Positions 5,323-19,149 of a stretch of DNA of 20,992 nucleotides are shown piece after piece (the first letter of the stretch is position 1; each line of letters opens with the position of its first letter). Below the pieces are notes generated by a model. It worked only from the letters and a program-made list of their open reading frames with translations, had not been told where the DNA came from and made no database searches. A program made the translations under genes and the position numbers. This DNA comes from a virus: positions 1-20,992 of IMG/VR virus record IMGVR_UViG_3300038548_000086; one strand, 5' to 3'.

Positions 5323-6320
5323 TGGCAGCTACATTCGGAGCAACACAAGAATCGTACGATACGGTAGGCAGGCGAGAGTCGCTGTCGGATCTGATCTACA
5401 ACATCGCGCCGACAGAGACGCCTTTCTTGATGATGGCCGGTCGAGGGACCGCGACCGCAATCAAGGAAGAGTGGCAGATGGACTCCCTGGCAGCCCCGGC
5501 GAACAACGCCGTGGAAGAGTCCGAGAAGGTCGCCACGGTACTCACTGTCGAGCCCACTATCCGCGTCATCAACTACTGCCAGATCAGCTCGAAGCACCTG
5601 TCTGTGTCGGGCACGGCGGAAGTCATCAACAAGGCTGGCCGCAACTCGGAGCTTTCGTATCAGCTCGCCAAGCGCGCGAAGGAGCTGAAGCGGGACATCG
5701 AGTTCACCTGCGTGGGTACGACCATCGCGCCGTTGGCGACAGACCCAAGGCAGTCGGCTTCGGTCGCGAATTACTTCCACACAGCCCTCGACGGGCAGGT
5801 GGGAACAGCTCCCGCGCTGGATGGTGCCCACACGAACATCGGCACCGGCACGCTCGGTGGCTGGGACGGCAGTGTGCATGATCCCTACGTCGATGGTGCC
5901 GCGCGGGCGCTCACCGAGTCGATGGTGAAGGGCGTGATTCAGGGCGCATGGACCAACGGTGGTGATCCGACCATCCTCATGTGCGATCCCTTCAACAAGA
6001 CCGTGATCTCGGGCTTCACCGGGAACTCGACTCGGTTCGATCGAGGCGAGGACAAGCGGTTGGTCGCAGCGATAGACGTGTACGTGTCTGATTTCGGCGA
6101 ACATCGTGCGGTGCCGAATCGGTTCTTCACATCGTCGGGCGTCCAGTGGATGTTCGCGTTCACGCCGGAGCTGTGGGAGATCTGTTACCTGCGGCCGTTC
6201 CGTCAGCACGCGCTGGCGAAGATCGGTGACTCGGAGGATCGCACGATCCTGGCTGAGTGGACCCTCAAGGGTCTGAACCACGCGGGCAACGGCGCAGTCT
6301 TCGACATCGCCAGAAGCTAG
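5322..6320 (+). CDS. Major capsid protein, SU10-like (DUF5309-type)
   Basis: Builds the icosahedral shell, presumably with an HK97 fold. The 332-residue length and the N-terminal pattern fit the SU10/DUF5309 capsid family: GRRESLSDLIYNIAPTETPF (about residues 16-35), then an EEWQMDSL strand, then NYCQISSKHLSVSGTAEVI around 85-105, and a helix with RAKELKRDIEF (about 120-130). The C-terminal part (EDRTILAEWTLKGLNHAGNG) is also typical. Unlike HK97 gp5 there is no obvious long delta domain; the separate upstream scaffold gene fits. The start is coupled to the scaffold stop (TAATG). A strong hairpin follows directly. Family assignment is from pattern memory but is very consistent along the chain. 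Confidence 0.93.
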   Translation: MAATFGATQESYDTVGRRESLSDLIYNIAPTETPFLMMAGRGTATAIKEEWQMDSLAAPANNAVEESEKVATVLTVEPTIRVINYCQISSKHLSVSGTAEVINKAGRNSELSYQLAKRAKELKRDIEFTCVGTTIAPLATDPRQSASVANYFHTALDGQVGTAPALDGAHTNIGTGTLGGWDGSVHDPYVDGAARALTESMVKGVIQGAWTNGGDPTILMCDPFNKTVISGFTGNSTRFDRGEDKRLVAAIDVYVSDFGEHRAVPNRFFTSSGVQWMFAFTPELWEICYLRPFRQHALAKIGDSEDRTILAEWTLKGLNHAGNGAVFDIARS

Positions 6321-7846: not shown

Positions 7847-8494
7847 GTGGCTTCGTTCATCGACTACGACAACCTGTGCGAGACGATTGCGTCCTGGTTG
7901 GCTCGCGACGATCTGACGGAAGAGATCAAGAATTTCGTCTGGCTCGCCGAGTGTGACATCCAGCGGACGATCCGGTTCCGCGACCCGCAGGACAGCATCT
8001 ACGAAAGCACCACCGTCGAGGACCAGGAGTGGGTCGAGCTGCCCGAGGACTACGCTGAGGGCGGACACCTCCGCTGGGACAACTCCAACAAGACCCTGCC
8101 GCAGCTCGAAGTGTCCTCGATCGCCGCGCTTGACCAGTTGAGCATACAAAAAGCCAGCACATGGTTCGGAAGGGAGCAACGCGTAGCGTTTCTGTGGGGC
8201 AACAGGCTCTACATGGGTCCCGTGCCCGGCGCGGAGCCGTTCACGCTCTACTACAAGTCGGGCGTCGTACATCTCAGCTCGAAGACCTCGACGAACCTGA
8301 TCTTGCGGGAGTACCCGGACTGCCTGCTGTACGGATCGCTGGCGACCTCCGCTCCGTTCCTGGGGGCAGATGAGCGCCTGGGCATGTGGGTTCAGCTATA
8401 CGACAACGCGAAGGAGGAGACTCGCAAGGCGGAGTGGCGGGCGCGTACGGGCCATGGTCTGCTGCGCATGAGAACCGACACGAAGGTTTTCTGA
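7847..8494 (+). CDS. Head-tail adaptor protein (SU10 adaptor-like)
   Basis: Connects the portal ring to the tail in short-tailed phages. 215 residues with the family pattern in order: an N-terminal helix pair (TIASWLARDDLTEEIKNFVW, LAECDIQRTIRFR); a strand region ending VELPEDYAEG; the LPQLEVSSIAALD segment; a beta-hairpin GNRLYMGPVPG followed by FTLYYKSG; and the C-terminal helices LREYPDCLLYGSLATSAPFL and WVQLYDNAKEE. This matches the phage adaptor family found beside SU10-type capsids. Start GTG at 7847 is directly after the previous stop, with GAGGG upstream. The stop overlaps the next ATG (TGATG). Confidence 0.9.
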   Translation: MASFIDYDNLCETIASWLARDDLTEEIKNFVWLAECDIQRTIRFRDPQDSIYESTTVEDQEWVELPEDYAEGGHLRWDNSNKTLPQLEVSSIAALDQLSIQKASTWFGREQRVAFLWGNRLYMGPVPGAEPFTLYYKSGVVHLSSKTSTNLILREYPDCLLYGSLATSAPFLGADERLGMWVQLYDNAKEETRKAEWRARTGHGLLRMRTDTKVF

Positions 8495-10086
8495 TGGAAG
8501 ACCGCATCGCCTTCGGCGAGTACACACCTGACCTGCCACCCCTCGTGAACAGTGGGCTCAGTGTTGCGAGGAACACGGTCCCTGTGCAGAGCGGCTACCA
8601 GGGGATCAACAAGCTCGTGGACTTCGCGGACTTCACGGCTCTTGATGACCGGGCCAGGGGAGCCATCGCTGGCATCGACCCGGAAGGAAACCCGTACAAC
8701 TTCGCTGGTACCGAGACGAATCTGTGGGCTAGCCGCGCTGTCACGGAGAAGGTGAGCTTCGTGGACGACGCCTACAACTGCTCGGGTGAGCTGTATTGGG
8801 AGTTCGTGGTCTACGGCAGCCAAGGCAAGCACCATGTTGTCGCGGTCAACTCTGCCGATGACACGCAATACTTCACGCTAGGAATATCAGAGGACTTCAA
8901 GCAGCTCGGGAACCCTGACCTGACGGGCACGGTTGCTCCGAGAGGAAAGCACGTAGGCGTTATCGCGAATTTCCTGATGCTCGGTAACACCTACGATCTC
9001 GTGAACGGCCAGGATGACACCGCGATCCACTGGTCTGCGATCGACGACATCTTCAACTGGCCGACGCCTGGGTCTGACGTTGCGAGCGCTGTGCAGTCAG
9101 GTCGGCAGCCGCTCCAGGGAAACGGTGGATCCGTTCAGCGTGTGGTGTCTGGATCCGAGGTCGGTGCGGTCTTCCAGGAGAACAGTATATGGCGCGTGGA
9201 CTATCGCGGCGGCGATGTTGTGTTCGAGCTGTCCCGCGTGGAGCCGGAGCGTGGTCTACTGATCCCTGCTGTTGCCCTGCCGTTCGGGAGGCAGGTGTTC
9301 TATCTCGCGGAGGATGGGTTCTATCTGTTCGACTACACCACATCGACGCCAATCGGTAGGGAGCGTGTGGACCGCACGTTCCTGGCAGACGTGGACAGTG
9401 AGTTCTTCCACCGCGTGTCTGCGATCGAGGACCCCGATACTCAGCGTATCCACATCCTGTATCCCGGCAGCGGGCACAGCGGTGGTACGCCGAACAAGAT
9501 GCTGATCTACGACTGGGGGTTGAATCGGTGGTCTCACGCTGAAGTCACTGCGGAGTGGCTCACGCTTTCGGTAGCGGCTGGTGTCGATCTGGATCTGCCG
9601 TCACCGGGTACTCCAGACGACCCCGATGCTTCTGGCGAGGGCGGTACGAACTATCCCGAGGGTGGCGTGGATGGTATCCACAGCACGACCACGGTTCCGC
9701 TCTCCAGCTTCGACCAACGTGTCGCGGCCACTGGAGCCCTGAGGATGGGGGCGTACTCCACGTCCGACATCCTACAAGGCTTCACGGGTACGAGGTTGGC
9801 AGCGACCCTGGAGACCGGGAGGCGCGAGCTGATCCCCGGCTCCAGGGCTCTCGCTATCGGAGCACGCCCGCTCGTGGACTCCGCAGACCCCACGGTCCAG
9901 GTCGCATCGCTTTCGAGAGCCAACAAGATTGGGAAGTTCTCGAACCCTGCGCACGTGAAGGACGACGATGGGCAAGCGAATTTTCGAGTGGATGGCAGAT
10001 ACCATTCCTTCCGGGTGAACCTCCCGGCAGGTTGGGACAACGCTCTAGCAATGGACGTGATGTTCAACAGGTCAGGCACTCGATGA
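8494..10086 (+). CDS. Tail nozzle / DNA-stabilisation-type protein
   Basis: 530 residues, chosen to start at ATG 8494, which overlaps the adaptor stop (TGATG); longer in-frame extensions would run into the adaptor gene. The pattern is that of a widespread short-tailed phage protein next to the adaptor: RIAFGEYTPDLPPLVNSGLS at the N-terminus, a WEFVVYGSQGKHHVVAVN strand pair near residue 103, then IHWSAIDDIFNWP, GAVFQENSIWRVDYRGGDV, EDGFYLFDYTTSTPIGRERV and a later IYDWGLNRWSHAEV. Repeated four-strand motifs suggest a beta-propeller-like core, as in T7 gp12-type nozzles and P22 gp10-type proteins. Residues ~362-400 are a Gly/Pro/Asp-rich loop. The role, extending the neck and closing the DNA channel, is inferred from family and order. 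Confidence 0.85.
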   Translation: MEDRIAFGEYTPDLPPLVNSGLSVARNTVPVQSGYQGINKLVDFADFTALDDRARGAIAGIDPEGNPYNFAGTETNLWASRAVTEKVSFVDDAYNCSGELYWEFVVYGSQGKHHVVAVNSADDTQYFTLGISEDFKQLGNPDLTGTVAPRGKHVGVIANFLMLGNTYDLVNGQDDTAIHWSAIDDIFNWPTPGSDVASAVQSGRQPLQGNGGSVQRVVSGSEVGAVFQENSIWRVDYRGGDVVFELSRVEPERGLLIPAVALPFGRQVFYLAEDGFYLFDYTTSTPIGRERVDRTFLADVDSEFFHRVSAIEDPDTQRIHILYPGSGHSGGTPNKMLIYDWGLNRWSHAEVTAEWLTLSVAAGVDLDLPSPGTPDDPDASGEGGTNYPEGGVDGIHSTTTVPLSSFDQRVAATGALRMGAYSTSDILQGFTGTRLAATLETGRRELIPGSRALAIGARPLVDSADPTVQVASLSRANKIGKFSNPAHVKDDDGQANFRVDGRYHSFRVNLPAGWDNALAMDVMFNRSGTR

Positions 10087-10430
10087 GCCACGAGGCAAAT
10101 CACAGGTCCGTGAGCCCCCCTGTCTTCTGGGCGAAGGACCGGCAGGACGAGTTCGACCGGAAGATGGCCGACTCGATCCGTGGTGTGCTGTTGGGTCACA
10201 CGAACAACCACTACACCGTGACGCTAGATGCTGGCGAGGTGTGTGTGGAGATCAACTACCCGTCAGCTAGGCCAGGGGTAGGGGTACAAATCACACCGCA
10301 GTCCTCGCTGGCTTCGACGTACCAGCGAGAGAACAACGTGTGGGGCGAGGCTGAAAACGGAAAGGTCAAGGTTTGCTATGACGGAAGCCCAGCCGGAACA
10401 GAGATCTACGCAGTCGCCGTCATCGGCTGA
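10083..10430 (+). CDS. Small conserved-type phage protein, 115 aa
   Basis: ATG 10083 overlaps the preceding stop (ATGA), which fixes the start although the frame is open far upstream inside the nozzle gene. It has a short N-terminal helix (KDRQDEFDRKMADSIRGVLL) and then an all-beta part with NNHYTVTLDAGEVCVEINYP, VQITPQSSLAS and a closing TEIYAVAVIG strand. I recall similar small beta proteins (strand, TPQT/S, strand, frya/avaviG) as hypothetical proteins in short-tailed phages. A structural tail or neck role is likely; no enzymatic motif is seen. The downstream gene begins 53 nt before this one ends. Confidence 0.8.
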   Translation: MSHEANHRSVSPPVFWAKDRQDEFDRKMADSIRGVLLGHTNNHYTVTLDAGEVCVEINYPSARPGVGVQITPQSSLASTYQRENNVWGEAENGKVKVCYDGSPAGTEIYAVAVIG

Positions 10431-10860
10431 CTTCATGCTCTTGGCGATTCCTCCCGATGACATCGGCAAGGTGTGGGAGCAGGTCGAGCCTGAGCTGGAC
10501 CGAGCATTCCGTCTCACGCGGAAGATCGAGACACACGAACTGCGCGAGGCTCTTGAGATCGGGTACGGGCAGCTTTGGGTGGTGTGGAACAACACGACGA
10601 AGGAGCAGTGGGCTGTGGTGCTGTCTGACATCCAGTCGTTCTACGGCGGCAGGAAGTGCGCTCGGATCGTAGGGTTGGCAGGCAAGGGCTTCGAGCTGTG
10701 GCGTCACCTGATCTTGGACATCGAAGTCTGGGCTGTGAATGAGGGGTGTGATGCTATCGAGATCGTGGGTCGCAAGGGATGGGCACGCATGTTCCCGGAC
10801 TACGATCCGATCGAGTACGTTCTATCGAAGGAGTTGAGCAATGGTCAGCTATGGCAGTAA
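10378..10860 (+). CDS. GNAT-fold-like phage protein
   Basis: 160 residues with a pattern seen in phage proteins that resemble GCN5-related acetyltransferases: an N-terminal LLAIPPDDIGKVWEQVEPEL, the strand LWVVWNN, the strand QWAVVLSDIQSF, KCARIVGLAGKGFELWRHLI in the place of a beta4-alpha3 acetyl-CoA turn, then EVWAVNEGCDAIEIVGRKGW. The usual Q/RxxGxG/A loop is not clear, so catalysis is uncertain and it may be a structural derivative of the fold. The start at 10378 has AAGG about 8 nt upstream but overlaps the previous gene by 53 nt; ATG 10435, directly after the previous stop, gives 141 residues and keeps the whole recognisable domain. Its place inside the virion block suggests a morphogenesis-linked role. 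Confidence 0.78.
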   Translation: MTEAQPEQRSTQSPSSADFMLLAIPPDDIGKVWEQVEPELDRAFRLTRKIETHELREALEIGYGQLWVVWNNTTKEQWAVVLSDIQSFYGGRKCARIVGLAGKGFELWRHLILDIEVWAVNEGCDAIEIVGRKGWARMFPDYDPIEYVLSKELSNGQLWQ

Positions 10861-11752
10861 TTCTTCCCAGCAGTCTACTGACCCGTGGGAGGCTCAACAG
10901 CCGTACCTGAAGCAGTTGTACGGGCGTGCTCAGGGTCTGTCCGAACAGGGCAACTACGAGTACGGCCCTGGGCGTGTGACTGGGTTCACGGGTGACTCGA
11001 TGGAGTCGTTCAGTCGAGCGAGCCAGCGTTCGCAGGGCACCGCTCTCCAGGGTATGAACCGTGATCTGACTGAGCAGACCATGCGGGGAGACTTCCTCGG
11101 TGCGAATCCCTACACCGACAACCTGAACCGCCACGTGTCTCGTGGCTTCTACAACACCGTGAATTCCTTGGGCTCGTCGTTCGGTGGGGCTGGACGCTCC
11201 GGTTCGGCTGCTCAGGGTCGTCTCCAGGGCCATGCCGAGGAGAACCTGGCTCGTGGCTTGGGTGACGTGCAGTACGAGAACTACGGTCGTGAGCGCGGCA
11301 TGATGCAGCAGGCCCAGCAGAATGCGTTCCAGATCGGCGAGGACGAGTGGCGAGACATCAACGCCCAGCGTGCGGTGGGCGAGCAGAAGGAAGCGAAGAG
11401 CCAGAGCTTCCTCGACGACCTCGTTGCTCGCTTCCAGCAGCAGCAGTATGGCACCGCTGAGAAGCTCTCCGAATTCTCGAACATGCTCGGCAACCCCGTG
11501 ATGCAGTCGCGAGGCGAGTCCTCGGGCATGAACGTCGGTGTCATCTCCTGCTGGACCGCCGCTGTGTTCTTCGGATGGTTCACCGATCAGTGGTTCGCAG
11601 CGAGACGCTACGTGATGGAGGAAGCACCCGAGTCGTTCCGCGAGTTCTACCTGACCCATGGTCGTGAGCTGGCTGCCGCGATCCAACGCGATCCCGAGCT
11701 GGCAGCCGAGTGGCGTCCGGTCTTCGAGGAGTTCGCCGCCAGGGGAGCGTAG
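10841..11752 (+). CDS. Putative internal virion protein with C-terminal CW-xxFG domain
   Basis: 303 residues, overlapping the previous gene by 20 nt. The N-terminus (DPWEAQQPYLKQLYGRAQGL) and the middle GRSGSAAQGRLQGHAEENLA and YENYGRERGMMQQAQQNAF are typical of phage proteins encoded between nozzle and large internal proteins; a long Gln-rich helical region follows (FLDDLVARFQQQQYGTAEKL). The last ~70 residues form a separate compact module: VISCWTAAVFFGW (Cys237-Trp238), an arginine-rich helix ARRYVMEEAPESFREFYLTH, and RELAAAIQRDPELAAEWRPV. I recall this CWxAxxxxG-type module from other phage proteins without a known function. Candidate ejection or tail-assembly protein; the first of four consecutive genes of this type. 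Confidence 0.82.
   Translation: MVSYGSNSSQQSTDPWEAQQPYLKQLYGRAQGLSEQGNYEYGPGRVTGFTGDSMESFSRASQRSQGTALQGMNRDLTEQTMRGDFLGANPYTDNLNRHVSRGFYNTVNSLGSSFGGAGRSGSAAQGRLQGHAEENLARGLGDVQYENYGRERGMMQQAQQNAFQIGEDEWRDINAQRAVGEQKEAKSQSFLDDLVARFQQQQYGTAEKLSEFSNMLGNPVMQSRGESSGMNVGVISCWTAAVFFGWFTDQWFAARRYVMEEAPESFREFYLTHGRELAAAIQRDPELAAEWRPVFEEFAARGA
11741..11747 (+). promoter_or_regulatory. Shine-Dalgarno for GTG start at 11753
   Basis: AGGGGAG five bases before GTG 11753. It supports this start over the in-frame ATG at 11768. Confidence 0.6.
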
Positions 11753-12493
11753 GTGCTGGTCTGGTGGATGGCCCTCGCGGGGCTGCTGAAGGGAGCGGCT
11801 GCTAGTGGTGCCGCTGGTGCCGCTGGTGGTGCCGCTGCCGGTGCTGGCGCTGCTGCTGCCGGTGGTGCTGCTGCCAGTGCTGCCGGTGCTGGCGCTGCTG
11901 GCGCTGCTGGCGCTGCTGGCGGTGCCGCTGGTGGTGGCTTGCTTGGTGGTATGGCTGGTGGTGGTGCCGCTGGTGCCGCACCCGCTGGAGCGTCAGCAGT
12001 AGGTGGAGGGGGTGGCTTGTTCGGAGGATCCAAGTTCGCCACGCAGGCGGCTCCCCATAGCCAATTCGCTAGCTCAGGATCCGGTGCGAGCAACCTGCAA
12101 ATGAAGGAGATGCTCGGGCAGGAGCCCTATGACCTCTCCACTCCGAGCCGACACGACATGATGACTGGGGCGAAGCGTGGGTTGAAGCCGATGGATCCGG
12201 GGTCACAGCCGTACATGTCGCAGCGGCCGGAGTCTTACCCCAACAAGACGATGGGGACCGATAGCTGGATGGACAAGGCTGGTGACTACATCGGTGAGGG
12301 CTTCAGCGGTGCTTGGGACGAGATGAAGAGTACGGACTGGAAGCAGGATGTGTGGGACCGGGCTCGCGCACCGGACCCCAGGTCTGAGGAGGCTGGCCGT
12401 GCGGTATCAGCACAGGCCCGATGCAAAGGAACCCCGTCCGTCCACAGGGCAACCGTCCCAGCTTTGGTGGTCGCCCCCCGACCAGCCAGGTGA
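11753..12493 (+). CDS. Ala/Gly-rich putative internal virion protein
   Basis: 246 residues starting at GTG directly after the previous stop, with AGGGGAG upstream. Residues ~13-83 are almost only Ala and Gly with a few Ser, Leu, Met and Pro (runs such as GAAGAAGGAAAGAGAAAAGG), preceded by a short hydrophobic WWMALAGLL. The remaining ~160 residues are polar, with DSWMDKAGDYIGEGFSGAWD near 190. Small-residue-rich helices can pack in membranes, and ejection proteins of short-tailed phages (for example T7 gp14) enter the outer membrane; that parallel is inference from position and composition. The last ~35 residues are Arg/Ala/Pro-rich and read through sequence that also encodes the next protein if that starts at 12421. 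Specific function unknown. Confidence 0.75.
   Translation: MLVWWMALAGLLKGAAASGAAGAAGGAAAGAGAAAAGGAAASAAGAGAAGAAGAAGGAAGGGLLGGMAGGGAAGAAPAGASAVGGGGGLFGGSKFATQAAPHSQFASSGSGASNLQMKEMLGQEPYDLSTPSRHDMMTGAKRGLKPMDPGSQPYMSQRPESYPNKTMGTDSWMDKAGDYIGEGFSGAWDEMKSTDWKQDVWDRARAPDPRSEEAGRAVSAQARCKGTPSVHRATVPALVVAPRPAR
11794..12000 (+). repeat. Low-complexity GCT/GGT/GCC tract
   Basis: Irregular run of Gly and Ala codons (GGT, GCT, GCC, GGC), with short local repeats such as GGTGCCGCT and GCTGGC. Codon mixing shows that selection acts on amino-acid composition rather than on a perfect DNA repeat, although slippage could change its length. Confidence 0.8.
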
Positions 12494-13566
12494 TGAGTCG
12501 TCTCGCTGGCCCGCGCCGCTTCGACGCTGGGTACTTCGATACTCCGGGTGGTGGCCCGGTGCGGAGGCGTCTACCGGATGGCCCGGTAGATAACGAGGGA
12601 TACGTCCGCTTCGAGGGCAAGGGTCTCCCCGGCGAGGTCATCAGTGGTGCCGGTGACCCCCTCACGCCCGCAGCGGATCCGCCCCTAGCTGGCCCTGGCG
12701 ACAACTTCAAACAGTTCGAGCAGTACAAGTTCAACAACAAGATGATGGAGTCCGAGTACGAACCGAACTACTTGCAGGCTACTGCGATGGGGCTCATGAC
12801 GATGAACCCGATGCAGTTCGTCGGGAGCCTGGGTCGCCAAGAGGATGCGTCCAACAGGTCGCAGTTCAATGATCTGGTCGGCAGCGTCCGTAGCCATGCT
12901 CGTGAGCGTGGTCGCGGCCTGCTCCCGATCGAGAAGAACGAGCTTTCCGATGCACGCGAGATGCTGATAGGAGCCCCCGGCCCGAGGGGTACGTTCGACA
13001 AGACGCAGAGCGTCATGTTCGAGGGCGAACCGTATGTTCGCGGTCATCAGGGTGGTGGTGTCTACGGAAAGTGGGGGCCTGCTGAACGCAAAAGCCTCGC
13101 TCAGCGAGACACAGATCGTGACATGCAAGCGTGGGTCGATTTCTATGACGGGATGAGCAAGGAAGCGTTCCAGGTGATGGTTGAGCGCGCAATCATCGGA
13201 GGCCCGAACCAGACAGGCGAAGAGGCGTGGATGCTCCGCAGCATATTGCAGGCCCTTGCGACCAAGGGTGGCGACAGGTTGCTGGAGATGAATAGGCGTA
13301 TGCAGCGCGTGACGATCAACAAGGCTGAGGAGGGGCAGCGTCAGCCTGGGGACATCAGCACGTCCCCGTTCAAGGCCGACCCACGCGCTCCCCTGCCCTT
13401 GCCCGCGGAAGCTGGCTCCAGCGCACCGCAAGCAGAACTGGGCTCAGATCAGGTGGCTGGAGGTACTGAGCGTCGCGCAATCGCGGAGTGGCTTAGGGAA
13501 AACCTCCGCTTGGGCGAGGGGCAGACTGGTCCTAGTCGAAGAATGGGTGGCCGCGGTAATCGCTGA
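12493..13566 (+). CDS. Putative internal virion protein, 357 aa
   Basis: ATG 12493 overlaps the previous stop as TGATG, the geometry used at several junctions here; an in-frame ATG at 12421 would add 24 residues and give a 73-nt overlap, atypical for this genome. The chain is helical and polar: a Gly/Pro-rich start (PRRFDAGYFDTPGGGPVRR), a middle helical part around YEPNYLQATAMGLMTMNPMQ, FNDLVGSVRSHARERGRGLL and DTDRDMQAWVDFYDGMSKEAF, and a Pro/Ala-rich tail. No catalytic motif or family is recognised. It lies between the Ala/Gly-rich protein and the giant protein, whose gene starts on its stop (TGATG). Size and position parallel middle ejection proteins of T7-type cassettes; this is inference. 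Confidence 0.78.
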   Translation: MSRLAGPRRFDAGYFDTPGGGPVRRRLPDGPVDNEGYVRFEGKGLPGEVISGAGDPLTPAADPPLAGPGDNFKQFEQYKFNNKMMESEYEPNYLQATAMGLMTMNPMQFVGSLGRQEDASNRSQFNDLVGSVRSHARERGRGLLPIEKNELSDAREMLIGAPGPRGTFDKTQSVMFEGEPYVRGHQGGGVYGKWGPAERKSLAQRDTDRDMQAWVDFYDGMSKEAFQVMVERAIIGGPNQTGEEAWMLRSILQALATKGGDRLLEMNRRMQRVTINKAEEGQRQPGDISTSPFKADPRAPLPLPAEAGSSAPQAELGSDQVAGGTERRAIAEWLRENLRLGEGQTGPSRRMGGRGNR

Positions 13567-16500
13567 TGGAGGAGCTTCACCCTACACGTGCGCTGATGGA
13601 GGACTCTGAGTTCCGAGACCTGGACGAAGAGTCCCAGGTCAAGCACTTGATGTCCGTAGATCAGGACTTCCGGGATGCGTTCGAGAGCGACCCGGAGGAG
13701 ACGATGCGTTCGCTCCGGGACATGGTGGGTCGGAAGCAGTACAAGGGCAGTGCGACAGGCGAAGCGATCCGCGGCTTCGGTAGAGGGCTGGGTGCTGCGG
13801 GGTTGGACACGCTCCAGCTCCCTTTCGAGACCGCGGAGTTCCTGTCCTCGCTGGCGGGTGGCGAATACCGGAGCGACATCAACCAAGCACTGGAAGAGTT
13901 CGAGCAGGAGCACTGGGCGCGTCCTGAAGAGGGGCCTGGTCAGATCGCGTACGACGCTGGCTGGGGCATGGGCACCGCTGCGTCGTTCTTCGCGGGCGGT
14001 CTCGGTGCAGCCAAGGTCCCCGGCATGATCGGGAAGGCTGGGAAATTCCTGACCAGCACGGCAGGACCGATGCGCTCGAAGGGTCTCGGGCTCGCAGCCG
14101 AGATGACTGGCGGTGCGACAGGGAACGTCGCGGCTGAACAGACAGCCAAGGTGACAGACAACATGTGGCTCATCGGTGGTGCTGCCGTCCTGGCTGGTGT
14201 CGCAGGCGGTGGCGCGATGATGGGAGCCATCAACAAGACCACGAAGCGCAGGATGCAAAGGGCGGCGGAAGGGATGCAGCCTCTTGACTCGGGTGAGTCG
14301 AGTTCCCTCCCGCCGCCCCAGGTGGGCGAAGAAGTTGCCACACCTGTTGGCGTCGGCGTAGTGCGCAAGGTCAAGGGGGACGACATCCACGTCGCCCAGC
14401 GCGACGGGCGGGAGCTGACGTACTCCATGGAGACCTGGAACGGCACCACGGTGCGTACCAAGGCGCAGCAGGCTGCCCAGGATGCGATGGACAACATCAA
14501 CGCCGAGGAGCTGGCGGAGCTGCGGAAGGCACACGGCTACGCGCCGGAGAGCCTGACTGCCATGTGGGAGGGCGAGAGCCAGACGATCCTTGAGCTGATG
14601 CACGAGGGCACGAAGAAGACCCTCGATGCTGGGCTCTACAAGCGCATCGCTCGCATCGGTGCGGAGATCATGAAGAAGGCTGGGATCAAGTACGACAAGC
14701 GGCAGGGCTTGATGGATCAGATGTTCAACGTCATCGACGCCAAGCTGATCCCCGAGGCTGAGATGAACGCCATCGCCAAGGCGACAGGCGGGCTCGCGAT
14801 CTCCGACGTGCGGTCGGTGTGGCGGCTCGTCGGGCGTGAGAGTGGCCGTCGGTTGGAGGTGCTCAAGGACATCTCGAACGGGTTCAAGAAGGCTGGCATG
14901 ATCCTCACCGACGATCAGCTCAAGGGGCTGGGTGCGGCTGCGAACGAGAACGGCATCGGCATGTGGCGTCGGCTTGAGAACGTGCGACGTGGGATGCTCG
15001 TCACCCAGGTCGCTACTGCTGCTCGTAACTTCGAGACGCAGATGGTTAACCTGACGCTGCACGGGCTGGCCGATGTCGTGGACAAGGCGATTGACATCGT
15101 GATCCCCAGTGTGAAGGGTTCACACGAAGCCATCAAGCCGTTCAAGGCTGCGCTGCGAGTCTTCATGTCACACGGTGACGACCGAGCGCGCACCAACGCG
15201 ATCGAGGAGTTCTTCGCGAAGAACGAAGACCCGATCATGCACAAGTTGTTCCGCCACTTCTCATCGGACTTGGAGGACATACCGTCCGGTGTCTTCACAC
15301 GCGACGCGATCGGCAACCTGGAGAAGGCGTCGCACCTGCTCAACAGCGTCAACCGCTTCCAGGAGTACACGATCCGCAGGGCTGTGTTCACCGATGAGCT
15401 GGAGCGTGTACTCCATCGCAAGGGCATGAACCTCGACGACTTGATCGAGAAGGGTGATCTGAAGAAGTTGGCCCGTGTGGATGTTGAGCACGCGATCCAG
15501 CGTGCGCTTGATGTGACGTGGGGTAAGGACTACGCGGGTGGCACGTTCGCTGGAAACTTCATCAAGTTCATGAACTCGGACACGCATACTCCATTCCAGC
15601 TCACGCAGCTTCTCCCGTTCCCACGCTTCATGGCGAACGCTTTCGAGTGGCAGTTCCGTCACTCCCCGCTCGGTGTCACCCGGTACATGAGCCCGAAGCA
15701 GCGGCAAGCGTTCCGTGGCGTTGGTGTCGTGGAGTCTGGTGATACCGTGAAGAGCATCGCGAAGAAGATGGGTGTGAGCCGCGAGCGGCTGTTGAAGTTG
15801 AACCCGAAGCTGAAGGTCCAGAAGAAGGGCTCGCAACTGGCCCTGCCGGAGGGCATGGAATACAACCTGGGGTTCAGGGACACACGCGCCCTGTCCGAGA
15901 CCCTGATCGGTACTGGTATCACCTACGGAGCATGGGAGACACGCAGGGCGCAGCCTGACGATGCTCGCTGGTACGAGATCAAGCCACCGGAGATGATGGC
16001 GCAGGCGCTCAATATCGACCCCGATAAGTACATCGACACGCGGGCCTTCAACCCGTTCTCCACCTACCTGTTCGCCATGCACATGGTCAACAAGTCCGGG
16101 ATCCTGACGGGCGAGGAGAGCACGGTCGGTTCGGTCACGGTGCGAGACATCATCCAGGGTGTAGCCGGTGCCAACATGCGCGCTGGTGCTGGCTTGTACC
16201 TCGTTGACCAAGCGATCCAGAAGTTTGTTGACACGTTCGAGGGCATGAATATCGACGAGTCTACGCTGGCCGAAGCAGCCCTCACGCCTGCGGCCGAGTT
16301 CTTCGGTGAAGCGTGGGCGGGGATGCTGGTCCCGTTCTCCACGGTCAAGGATCTCGTGGCACAGTTCGATGAGGGGGAGCGTCGCCTTCGTGACGAGCGT
16401 GACGAGCTTCCTGGTATCGGGCCGATAAAGCGTCGCCTGCCGTACGCAGCAGACGATCAGCCCGAGCTGCGTTCTCCACTGCGAGCAGGTCCCATCATCC

Positions 16501-16934
16501 GGGAGGACCCGTTGCTTCGGCAACTGTTCGGTTTGACCAGGAAGTCCGCGAAGAATCTCGCCGAAAGCGAGGCAGATAAGTTCGGGTTCACTCGCTCCGA
16601 TCTACTGCCGTCGTCCGGTGACGAGTCATACGATGCGGAGATGGCTGCCCGCATGGGTCCGATGGTTGAGAGCAACTTGCTCCCGTACTTGAGGAGCGAG
16701 CGATACCAGAACTCCACTTCCGCCGAGCAAGCTGAACTTTACAAAGCGCGCATCAGGGAGATACAGAAGGCTGCGAGGGTACAGACTGGGATGCGGCAGC
16801 CTTCGGCCAGGTCGAAGCTGGAAGAGCGTCGCAAGGGCAGGCGAGCGCGGAGCGTGTTGAAGGAGCGCAACCAGTCGCTGAAGGAGCGCAAGAACCGACT
16901 GGAAGGGCAGCGTCTAGGGGGCGACAGTGGCTGA
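13566..16934 (+). CDS. Large internal virion (DNA ejection) protein with LysM-like segment
   Basis: 1122 residues, the largest gene, starting on the previous stop (TGATG). N-terminal ~100 residues are charged helix. Two small-residue hydrophobic stretches follow (about 134-158 and 199-223, e.g. MWLIGGAAVLAGVAGGGAMM), possible membrane-active helices. Residues ~255-297 look like a small SH3/KOW-like beta barrel (VGVGVVRKVKGDDIHVAQRD). The long helical body includes FPRFMANAFEWQFRHSPLG near 690, and the end has the DPLLRQLFGL and basic coiled-coil segments common in large phage internal proteins. Residues ~720-761 match LysM: SGDTVKSIAKKMGVSRERLL, then LNPKL and a closing LALPEG. LysM binds N-acetylglucosamine polymers such as peptidoglycan. 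No lytic transglycosylase motif is evident. The likely role is crossing the cell envelope during ejection. Confidence 0.85.
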   Translation: MEELHPTRALMEDSEFRDLDEESQVKHLMSVDQDFRDAFESDPEETMRSLRDMVGRKQYKGSATGEAIRGFGRGLGAAGLDTLQLPFETAEFLSSLAGGEYRSDINQALEEFEQEHWARPEEGPGQIAYDAGWGMGTAASFFAGGLGAAKVPGMIGKAGKFLTSTAGPMRSKGLGLAAEMTGGATGNVAAEQTAKVTDNMWLIGGAAVLAGVAGGGAMMGAINKTTKRRMQRAAEGMQPLDSGESSSLPPPQVGEEVATPVGVGVVRKVKGDDIHVAQRDGRELTYSMETWNGTTVRTKAQQAAQDAMDNINAEELAELRKAHGYAPESLTAMWEGESQTILELMHEGTKKTLDAGLYKRIARIGAEIMKKAGIKYDKRQGLMDQMFNVIDAKLIPEAEMNAIAKATGGLAISDVRSVWRLVGRESGRRLEVLKDISNGFKKAGMILTDDQLKGLGAAANENGIGMWRRLENVRRGMLVTQVATAARNFETQMVNLTLHGLADVVDKAIDIVIPSVKGSHEAIKPFKAALRVFMSHGDDRARTNAIEEFFAKNEDPIMHKLFRHFSSDLEDIPSGVFTRDAIGNLEKASHLLNSVNRFQEYTIRRAVFTDELERVLHRKGMNLDDLIEKGDLKKLARVDVEHAIQRALDVTWGKDYAGGTFAGNFIKFMNSDTHTPFQLTQLLPFPRFMANAFEWQFRHSPLGVTRYMSPKQRQAFRGVGVVESGDTVKSIAKKMGVSRERLLKLNPKLKVQKKGSQLALPEGMEYNLGFRDTRALSETLIGTGITYGAWETRRAQPDDARWYEIKPPEMMAQALNIDPDKYIDTRAFNPFSTYLFAMHMVNKSGILTGEESTVGSVTVRDIIQGVAGANMRAGAGLYLVDQAIQKFVDTFEGMNIDESTLAEAALTPAAEFFGEAWAGMLVPFSTVKDLVAQFDEGERRLRDERDELPGIGPIKRRLPYAADDQPELRSPLRAGPIIREDPLLRQLFGLTRKSAKNLAESEADKFGFTRSDLLPSSGDESYDAEMAARMGPMVESNLLPYLRSERYQNSTSAEQAELYKARIREIQKAARVQTGMRQPSARSKLEERRKGRRARSVLKERNQSLKERKNRLEGQRLGGDSG
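15723..15848 (+). other. LysM-like segment inside the ejection protein
   Basis: Encodes about residues 720-761 of the 1122-residue protein. Hallmarks seen: the SGDTV start, IAKKMGVS helix 1, the LLKLNPKL helix 2 with conserved Asn-Pro, and the final LALP strand. Length and spacing fit a single LysM repeat. Assignment is by eye. Confidence 0.75.
16916..16921 (+). promoter_or_regulatory. Shine-Dalgarno for GTG start at 16927
   Basis: AGGGGG five bases upstream of GTG 16927, inside the end of the ejection-protein gene. It supports a GTG start and an 8-nt overlap. Confidence 0.6.
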
Positions 16935-19149
16935 GCTGAAGGACTACGACATCGACTCGTCTGCGAACATCGACTCGCCTCCCGATGGCTGGCCGGAGAA
17001 CATGTCCCGCAGCCTCGTGAACAACACGGGCCGCGATATGATGGGTGCGATCAAGCGGGACTGGGAGGGCTCAGCAACAGGCGGCGGTACGTGGCGCAAC
17101 ATCTCCCAGGACTACGACATCCAGTTCGTGGACGTGAGCAATTTCAAGATCCTGCTCGTGGATCAGACCGCGCTGTATCCGGTGGGTCGGAAGATCAAGC
17201 TGGACCAGACCACGGACGCGTGGTGCTTCGTGTCTGCGGTGTCCATGTCAGGCTCCGACACGCTCATCACGGTGGATGACTTCGACGCGACCGGGCACGA
17301 TGAAGTGGACTCGGGCGTTACGGATACGGAACCGTCGGCCACGGTCTTCATCTTCAATGCCTTCGGTGGTGTGGCAGAGCATGGCATCGGCAAGGCTGCG
17401 TTCGAGAATGCCATCGGCGGGGAGTTCGAGGTCCCTACTGCTCTCACCAGCACTGCGTTGCAGCTTGCGATCGACAACGCTGCTAGCAACGGGAACATCG
17501 TGCTGATGGAGGAGGGCGTCTACGACATCACGGACACCATCACAGTCCCGTCAGGCATCCAGATTTGGGGACGCGGGTTCCCCAACACCATCCTCCGAGC
17601 GGACGCTGGCGACCTCGCCGATGACGTGATGCGTTTCGATTCGAGTGCGGACAACATTGAACTGAAGGGCTTCCGCATCGACGGTGAGGCTTCAACCCAG
17701 ACCGCAGGCAACGGTATCAATGGCAGCGCAGCCGGTGCTCATTCCCGCATCTTCATACGCGATGTTGAATTAGTTGACATCTGGGGGACGGGCATCCTGT
17801 TCGATGGCTCTGCGAACACCTCTCAGGTATGGATGGAGAACCTGAAGTTCTTCGCGTGCGGTGACGAGTTCATCAAGATGAACGACCCTGATGGTTTGGC
17901 AGGCTCCATCTTCCTCTCCAACATCGTCGGCGTGAACCCTGGCACGGGAGGCAACGCCACTACCACTGCCAACGGCATCGAGATCGAGGGTCGGCACACC
18001 GCGGAGGGCATCGAGATCCACTTGAACGTGGACGCCGCCAACACGGGTGCCGGATACGTGATGGTGGCGCTGGATTCAGGTGGTACTGGCATCGGGGCCT
18101 ACCATTCCACGCTAACAAACTTCTCGATCACGGGTGACTTCGGTGCGACGAGCATCGTCGGGCTCAAGGTTGGTGGCACTCATAATGCAATCTCGAACGG
18201 AGCGATCGAGGTGCGTGGCCCATCGGCGAAACCCCTGGTTGTGGACGCCGAGACCAGCGGTGCTTTTGTCACGAGTGATATTGCCTTCTCGAATGTGATC
18301 TTCCAAAACGGTCTCAGCAACACGGTCTCGTCAGACTCCGAGCGGATCCTGTTCAACGGCTGCTACTTCGAGGACCAGTCCGCGCAGGGTCTTCAGCTCG
18401 ATAGCCTCGATACTGTCATCACCGGCTGTTACTTCAAGACTCAGGCGATTGGAATACAAGCTGCTGGCGGCTCAAGAGATCTTGTTATCAGCGGTTGCGT
18501 CATCCAGGACTGCTCCAACGACGGCATCTCCCTCAGCTCAGGCTCCTCTGGCACCATCATTCACGGGAACACCTTCCGTGACATCACAGACGATGGGATC
18601 GTTATCGCTAATGGCGCGACGTACGGTCCTGTCACCCCGAACATCTTCGACAACGTGACCGGGGAGAACCTGAAGATCACAAGCACGTCGTCATACGTTA
18701 CTACCTACGACGGCGCTGACGCTGATGAATCTATCTCCCTTTGTGACACCGACGGTCCCGGCAGCATGGGACCAGAGCGGGATGTCGATGGGATGATTGG
18801 CCGCTCGTTCCCGGTTCCGCCAGACGGCAACACGAAGTACCTTGTGAACTGCACGGTCAATTACGATTCTTTCTCAAGTGGGACTGGGCAAGCCAGATTC
18901 CGGGTTGGCCCTGCTGGTGATCTCACCGATCCCATTGCCGCGACCTCGGTTACGGGACCGGCCGGTGGCCCCACCGTATTCGTTGAGTTCTACCTTACGC
19001 CGAGTGTCGGGGACGTATATACGCTGGGGCTATACCGGGTGAGCGGGTCCGATGACATCTGGGCGCGAAGGGATCATCTTGAAGGCGGAGCGGCTGCGTC
19101 TTTTTCGAGAGCCGAACTTCGCATCCTTCACCTGGGCGGGGGCACCTAG
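16927..19149 (+). CDS. Tailspike with right-handed beta-helix
   Basis: 740-residue receptor-binding protein. Residues ~1-50 hold an attachment segment (DGWPENMSRSLVNNTGRDMM) repeated in the next gene; ~55-150 form a beta-rich domain typical of phage tail appendages (FKILLVDQTALYPVGRKIKL). From ~173 to ~605 there is a parallel beta-helix signature: ALQLAIDNAASNGNIVLMEE, IQIWGRGFPNTIL, then many rungs of the type NIELKGFRIDG, VITGCYFKTQAIGIQAAGG, LVISGCVIQDCSNDGISLSS. This is the pectate-lyase/P22-tailspike architecture, often with polysaccharide-degrading activity; catalytic carboxylates cannot be placed by eye. The last ~130 residues look like a separate beta-sandwich tip (FPVPPDGNTKYLVNCTVNYD). 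The start is GTG with AGGGGG upstream. Confidence 0.9.
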   Translation: MAELKDYDIDSSANIDSPPDGWPENMSRSLVNNTGRDMMGAIKRDWEGSATGGGTWRNISQDYDIQFVDVSNFKILLVDQTALYPVGRKIKLDQTTDAWCFVSAVSMSGSDTLITVDDFDATGHDEVDSGVTDTEPSATVFIFNAFGGVAEHGIGKAAFENAIGGEFEVPTALTSTALQLAIDNAASNGNIVLMEEGVYDITDTITVPSGIQIWGRGFPNTILRADAGDLADDVMRFDSSADNIELKGFRIDGEASTQTAGNGINGSAAGAHSRIFIRDVELVDIWGTGILFDGSANTSQVWMENLKFFACGDEFIKMNDPDGLAGSIFLSNIVGVNPGTGGNATTTANGIEIEGRHTAEGIEIHLNVDAANTGAGYVMVALDSGGTGIGAYHSTLTNFSITGDFGATSIVGLKVGGTHNAISNGAIEVRGPSAKPLVVDAETSGAFVTSDIAFSNVIFQNGLSNTVSSDSERILFNGCYFEDQSAQGLQLDSLDTVITGCYFKTQAIGIQAAGGSRDLVISGCVIQDCSNDGISLSSGSSGTIIHGNTFRDITDDGIVIANGATYGPVTPNIFDNVTGENLKITSTSSYVTTYDGADADESISLCDTDGPGSMGPERDVDGMIGRSFPVPPDGNTKYLVNCTVNYDSFSSGTGQARFRVGPAGDLTDPIAATSVTGPAGGPTVFVEFYLTPSVGDVYTLGLYRVSGSDDIWARRDHLEGGAAASFSRAELRILHLGGGT

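Follow-up and report, generated by a model that had tools for sequence, protein, structure and literature searches.

A LysM module inserted into the putative ejection protein of a phage whose closest relatives encode an SLT domain at the same locus

The DNA analyzed here, referred to as the window, is the entire stretch of 20,992 nucleotides of one IMG/VR virus record. It carries a block of structural genes in the order terminase, portal, scaffold, capsid, SU10-type adaptor, tail protein, and ejection protein, followed by two more ORFs, a giant ORF, a beta-helix spike, and a tail fibre. This is the gene order of T7, with the giant ORF in the place of gp16. The genes that bear on the present analysis are the following:

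7847..8494, + strand: SU10-type head-tail adaptor (Pfam SU10_adaptor, E 5.9e-18)
10841..11752, + strand: DNA ejection protein (PHROG 4287 "DNA ejection protein", E 1e-11), by position the probable equivalent of T7 gp14
12421..13566, + strand: ORF of 381 aa that abuts the giant gene, with no Pfam domain
13566..16934, + strand: ORF for the giant protein of 1122 aa, which belongs to the HMO-2011 gp22-like family and probably acts in DNA ejection as an internal virion protein
16927..19149, + strand: beta-helix protein, a probable tail spike (Pfam Beta_helix, E 1.5e-14), directly 3' of the giant gene both here and in relatives

The product of the giant ORF matched HMO-2011 and the RCA phages with an E value of about 1e-17 (tblastn), many relatives were found in IMG/VR, and homology runs across the conserved C-terminal module (PFPRF...WYE...) by which the HMO-2011 gp22-like family is recognized. 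HMO-2011 gp22 and the large proteins of the Roseobacter phages CRP-1, CRP-2, CRP-345, and CRP-603 are homologous to it over residues of about 350-1090 and are likewise placed before or within the structural gene block, but the identity is about 20-25% and the LysM described below is absent at the site. T7 gp16 (internal virion protein D) and its homologs resemble the giant protein in size and in their place just before the tail spike or fibre, but the cores have no detectable match in sequence or fold. Because the gene order supports such a role, we consider that the giant ORF probably encodes the ejection (internal virion) protein at the gp16 position of a phage whose structural genes follow a T7-like order and include an SU10-type adaptor. 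An ejection function had been proposed in the preliminary description, and the location of the gene at the ejection-protein position agrees with this. From position and family, we infer that the protein would travel inside the head and enter the cell upon ejection.

Three relatives that share both the gene order and the giant gene are closest to the window, namely L206 (a contig in a GTDB MAG), L008/L094, and L095/L284. Identity to the window is 31-33% for their giant proteins and about 55-60% for the capsid and/or tail proteins. ORFs homologous to the PHROG 4287 gene occur in all three, and the 381-aa ORF shows weak similarity to the equivalent ORF on the contig of L095. An 84-aa stretch at 10176-10427 of the window has a weak, sub-threshold match to Mtd_N, the N-terminal domain of the phage major tropism determinant (E 0.011). 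Five further phages (L311, L312, L314, L319, and L320) encode tail proteins 42-51% identical to that at 8386-10083 of the window, and the giant gene family is absent within 10 kb downstream; with similar tails lacking this family nearby, ejection genes seem to be exchanged as modules between phages that have similar heads and tails.

The preliminary description had placed a LysM-like module deep inside this protein, and its ORF, motifs, and residue numbers are as stated there, with SGDTVKSIAKKMGVS at residues 724-738, LNPKL at 745-749, and LALPEG at 758-763. A profile search confirmed the assignment: within the whole protein, residues 721-750 matched Pfam PF01476 at 22.1 bits (E 1.5e-4), above the curated cut-off of 20.9 bits, and the score rose to 26.4 bits (E 6.8e-6) on a 101-aa segment and to 27 bits (E 1.1e-7) in a six-frame Pfam search of the whole record. 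This match spans positions 2-30 of the 43 in the profile; support for the second strand therefore comes chiefly from the PDB alignment and from the consensus GxxLxLP. The top PDB sequence match is the LysM pair of a Thermus NlpC/P60 peptidase (phmmer, E 4.9e-6), and its alignment extends to LPEG. NCBIfam and PHROG returned LysM-bearing wall proteins, including murein transglycosylase D, DipM, and a "lysM motif protein", in matches that are partial and below their own cut-offs. As profile libraries and PDB sequences are concordant, a chance motif is ruled out, and on sequence grounds residues 721-763 form a LysM. The insert has the consensus and the predicted helix pair in common with the LysM modules (PF01476, or CBM50) of the wall hydrolases MltD, DipM, and Thermus NlpC/P60. 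Those modules are terminal or tandem and belong to secreted enzymes; unlike them, the LysM of the window is a single internal copy, and the phage protein around it has no catalytic domain.

The module and its surroundings comprise the following parts:

15615..15725, + strand: conserved left flank, PFPRFMANAFEWQFRHSPLG ... SPKQRQAFRG, in which P684, F685, and R687 are invariant; helices 686-698, 701-708, and 710-716 in the model
15726..15854, + strand: LysM domain, residues 721-763 (PF01476 above cut-off, PDB LysM match, NCBIfam/PHROG matches; strand-helix-helix-strand in an isolated model of low confidence)
15726..15878, + strand: lineage-specific in-frame insertion, residues 721-771, about 51 aa with boundaries of +/- 3 residues, missing in 147 distinct relatives
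15855..15878, + strand: C-terminal linker of the insert, MEYNLGFR, with no counterpart in relatives and low pLDDT (751-770)
15879..15980, + strand: conserved right flank, DTRALSETLIGTGITYGAWETRR ... WYEI, in which G782 is invariant and W802 nearly so; helix 773-795 with high pLDDT

The LysM had been proposed to interrupt what is otherwise one continuous domain, and alignment with homologs bears this out. The flanks are continuous and conserved in the relatives, residues 727-752 have no counterpart in at least 143 of 147 distinct relatives (at most four have one), and a LysM segment occurs at none of the 147 distinct homologous sites, those of HMO-2011 and the RCA phages included. This rules out that the segment, or unrelated sequence in its place, is common to all homologs. 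The spacing from PFPRF to WYE is 118 residues in the window versus 66-67 in more than 100 IMG/VR relatives, independent local alignments end at residues 710-715 and resume at 772, and the HMO-2011 gp22 and RCA phage proteins align with one single long gap exactly at the LysM. Across the site, the window reads ...FRG[VGVVESGD...LGFR]DTRALSETLIG, while the three closest relatives read ...IGRG-EVKPLITGTVG (L206), ...VAAG-DIKPIIKSTTG (L008), and ...VAQG-DVSTITKASLG (L095); from this alignment, the insert is about 51 residues long, with boundaries uncertain by about three. A complete LysM module with its linker thus interrupts, in frame, a loop that joins two conserved helices in the C-terminal half, and the insertion point is the "G|D" turn that follows the PFPRF helix. 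The insert carries a net charge of +7 and has a GC3 of 0.84, compared with 0.78 for the gene. There is no evidence of an assembly chimera, as the insert is in frame, its GC and GC3 are gene-like, and perfect flanking repeats are lacking, although an artefact of this kind is conceivable given a single contig.

The loop itself varies in the family. Longer, unrelated insertions occur in the same loop after PFPRF in L058 (from about residue 818 of its protein) and L086, so the site is generally permissive, and L012 and L014 have a short tandem duplication there. In L238 and L244, the native, uninterrupted loop reads GDTSKLSRA or GDTSKISRA, like the start of a LysM (GDTxxxIA). As the insertion lies beside a GD(T) turn that resembles the LysM start, short homology may have favored recombination at this place.

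A full-length AlphaFold model of the giant protein was obtained from a 66-row alignment (mean pLDDT 68.6, pTM 0.60). In it, the flanks form confident helices (701-708, 710-716, and 773-795), and the insert forms two helices, 727-735 and 739-745, with a block pLDDT of about 73-81 and no strands; the linkers at 721-724 and 751-770 are of low confidence. Helices held between confident flanking helices by low-confidence linkers give the appearance expected of a loop insertion. Modeled alone and without an alignment, the insert is predicted to adopt a strand-helix-helix-strand arrangement, at a low mean pLDDT of 63. LysM structures 4uz2 and 5yz6 were in the top rows of a Foldseek search with the insert, weakly, at an E value of about 2, and VIA-align gave no match at Z>=2; both of these LysM-only structural searches are weak. 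The core of the giant protein matched nothing in the PDB, either by profile or by full-length fold search, and T7 gp16 was not among the 50 Foldseek matches listed for the model. The BFVD neighbors of the full model are uncharacterized phage proteins, several of which are named "Large polyvalent protein associated domain". Phage polyvalent proteins, a class described previously (PMC5512222), are recognized by LPD or effector domains, and Pfam detected no LPD domain in the giant protein. One relative is itself a polyvalent protein: L102 (1671-10166) encodes 2832 aa in which an N-terminal ddrB-ParB, a Zeta toxin, and RadC are fused to the same C-terminal core.

Within our sample, the LysM at this insertion site is unique to one genome. 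None of the other contigs tested has a LysM at the giant-gene locus, a search with a gapped DNA pattern for LysM-bearing members returned 35 loci, none of them a family member, clade-specific scans of IMG/VR and a genome collection yielded no further LysM-bearing member, and the insert used as a query found no relative. A distant relative, L264, encodes a strong LysM (50 bits) in a 309-aa ORF of its contig (G036:C1:36417-36545), perhaps an endolysin; as it belongs to a different gene, at a distance of about 20 kb from the giant one, it was ruled out as the same feature. The papers on HMO-2011 and the RCA phages make no mention of LysM, and an open-access paper library, searched for LysM together with ejection or internal virion proteins or with podoviruses and peptidoglycan binding, yielded no description of a wall module placed in this way.

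The three closest relatives have the same gene order as the window, but they lack the LysM and carry an SLT lytic transglycosylase adjacent to or fused with the giant protein. In L206, a 221-aa SLT ORF (5325-5990, E 7e-22) ends 1 bp before the giant gene, and in L008 one of 216 aa (5328-5978, E 3e-16) ends 10 bp before it; in both, the SLT gene sits between the giant gene and the ORF at the position of the 381-aa ORF of the window. In L095, the SLT lies within the N-terminus of the giant protein at residues 65-169 (L095:6438-6752, E 8e-26) and also matches the PHROG "internal virion protein with endolysin domain". An SLT at the N-terminus is the architecture described for T7 gp16 (PMC8954989), and L095 resembles the T7 protein in joining such a transglycosylase domain to a core of the same kind. 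The occurrence of the SLT as a separate gene in L206 and L008 and as an N-terminal domain in L095 amounts to gene fusion or fission among close relatives.

In the window, the 381-aa ORF abuts the giant gene directly, so that the upstream SLT position is covered by the record and is empty. No SLT domain was found in any frame of the 21-kb record, and Pfam scans that took in the scaffold, all window ORFs from 8386 onward, and most of the smaller ones detected no lytic domain. The giant protein of the window thus differs from T7 gp16 in having an internal LysM and no N-terminal SLT, the latter being a phage-specific and not a universal feature of gp16-like proteins. Many more distant relatives have neither an SLT nor a LysM in their contigs, which are partial, and hence the absence of an SLT is not unusual in itself, and the pairing of a LysM with a missing SLT comes down to a single gain and a single loss. 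Our reading of this pattern is that a wall-cutting SLT module would have been lost, and a wall-binding LysM module gained, in a machine resembling T7 gp16.

For T7, it has been reported that gp16 exits the head together with gp14 and gp15, that its N-terminal transglycosylase acts in the periplasm, where it helps when the peptidoglycan is highly cross-linked (PMC8954989). In other phages, according to the same review, the hydrolase domain may be found on the gp15 homolog instead, and P22-like phages lack it (PMC8954989). We propose that the giant protein of the window would likewise leave the head along with the DNA and that, during its passage through the periplasm or its assembly there, the LysM would bind GlcNAc-containing glycan strands and hold the ejection conduit on the sacculus. 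Such binding may do what local cutting does in the relatives, or it may dock the conduit next to a hydrolase, of the host or of the phage, that acts in trans. Wall gripping by the LysM with functional replacement of the SLT seems plausible to us, if tentatively and a little short of an even chance. The stricter form, in which the SLT was exchanged for a LysM grafted into the largest ejection protein and the conduit is fixed to intact peptidoglycan, or passes through it, with no virion hydrolase involved, we consider rather unlikely. Wall gripping has against it that a single genome carries the LysM, and also the T7 model, in which gp16 residues 411-1118 end in the cytoplasm (PMC8954989): by naive position, a LysM at residue 740 would lie past the inner membrane in the cytoplasmic hub, away from the peptidoglycan. 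These likelihoods and those given below are shares that do not exclude one another.

The earlier suggestion that the LysM may act in place of a lytic enzyme is upheld only in part: the SLT contrast with the three nearest syntenic relatives and the lack of lytic domains in the scanned ORFs speak for it. About half of the phage genome lies outside the record, which has 20,992 bp compared with 42-45 kb for the contigs of two relatives, and in L102 an SLT ORF is located just downstream of the giant gene. A muralytic virion enzyme could accordingly be encoded elsewhere, with the LysM serving only to target it or to add affinity, which would be compatible with the binding step and with parts of the other readings while denying replacement. 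Against this, all three syntenic relatives have their SLT either directly before the giant gene or fused to it, at the very position found empty here, and we regard an enzyme elsewhere as possible, on the unlikely side.

Binding to the wall is not the only role known for LysM domains in phage structural proteins. Those of T4 gp53, Milano gp25, A-1(L) gp16, and Mu gp43 bridge or fill the hub and wedge of the baseplate (PMC10811340, PMC10966104, PMC11915804), and the LysM of the giant protein might similarly be a structural connector that docks to a virion protein (the portal, a gp14- or gp15-like ejection protein, or a neighboring copy) and never touches peptidoglycan, a role that the placement of a single copy in an internal loop would fit. 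However, these connectors belong to contractile-tail baseplates and are conserved in their own families, whereas the window shows no contractile-tail genes and its LysM is an isolated insertion in an ejection-type protein, missing from all relatives with the same core; moreover, the best profile matches are to wall hydrolases. We therefore judge a connector role unlikely. Equally low is the probability that we give to an insertion under little or no selection, in which part of a LysM would have entered a permissive and variable loop by recombination and would have no specific role. The variable length of the site in L058, L086, L012, and L014 and the presence of the LysM in one genome only are in keeping with this, but the insert keeps the whole LysM consensus between strand 1 and LALPEG, is in frame, and has a gene-like codon composition, unlike a decaying fragment, and the nearest relatives differ in SLT content too.

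It is very improbable that the helical pair is instead a DNA-binding helix-turn-helix-like element helping the C-terminal part to hold DNA like T7 gp16-C, which binds DNA (PMC8954989), since despite the positive charge of the insert and weak, sub-threshold matches of the segment to Pfam HTH families, LysM is the sole family above its curated cut-off, the HTH matches score about 11 bits lower or more, and LysM strand 1 and the GxxLxLP of strand 2 are present in the sequence.

To return to wall gripping by the LysM, the passage of DNA through the cell wall has been detailed mainly for T7 among short-tailed phages. In the phage described here, the wall module would occupy a central place in the core and not the N-terminus. 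With related ejection loci of which three have a cutter and one has a binder in the putative conduit protein, the substitution of gripping for cutting becomes testable, and the comparison of these loci suggests that one phage may grip the wall where its three closest relatives cut it.
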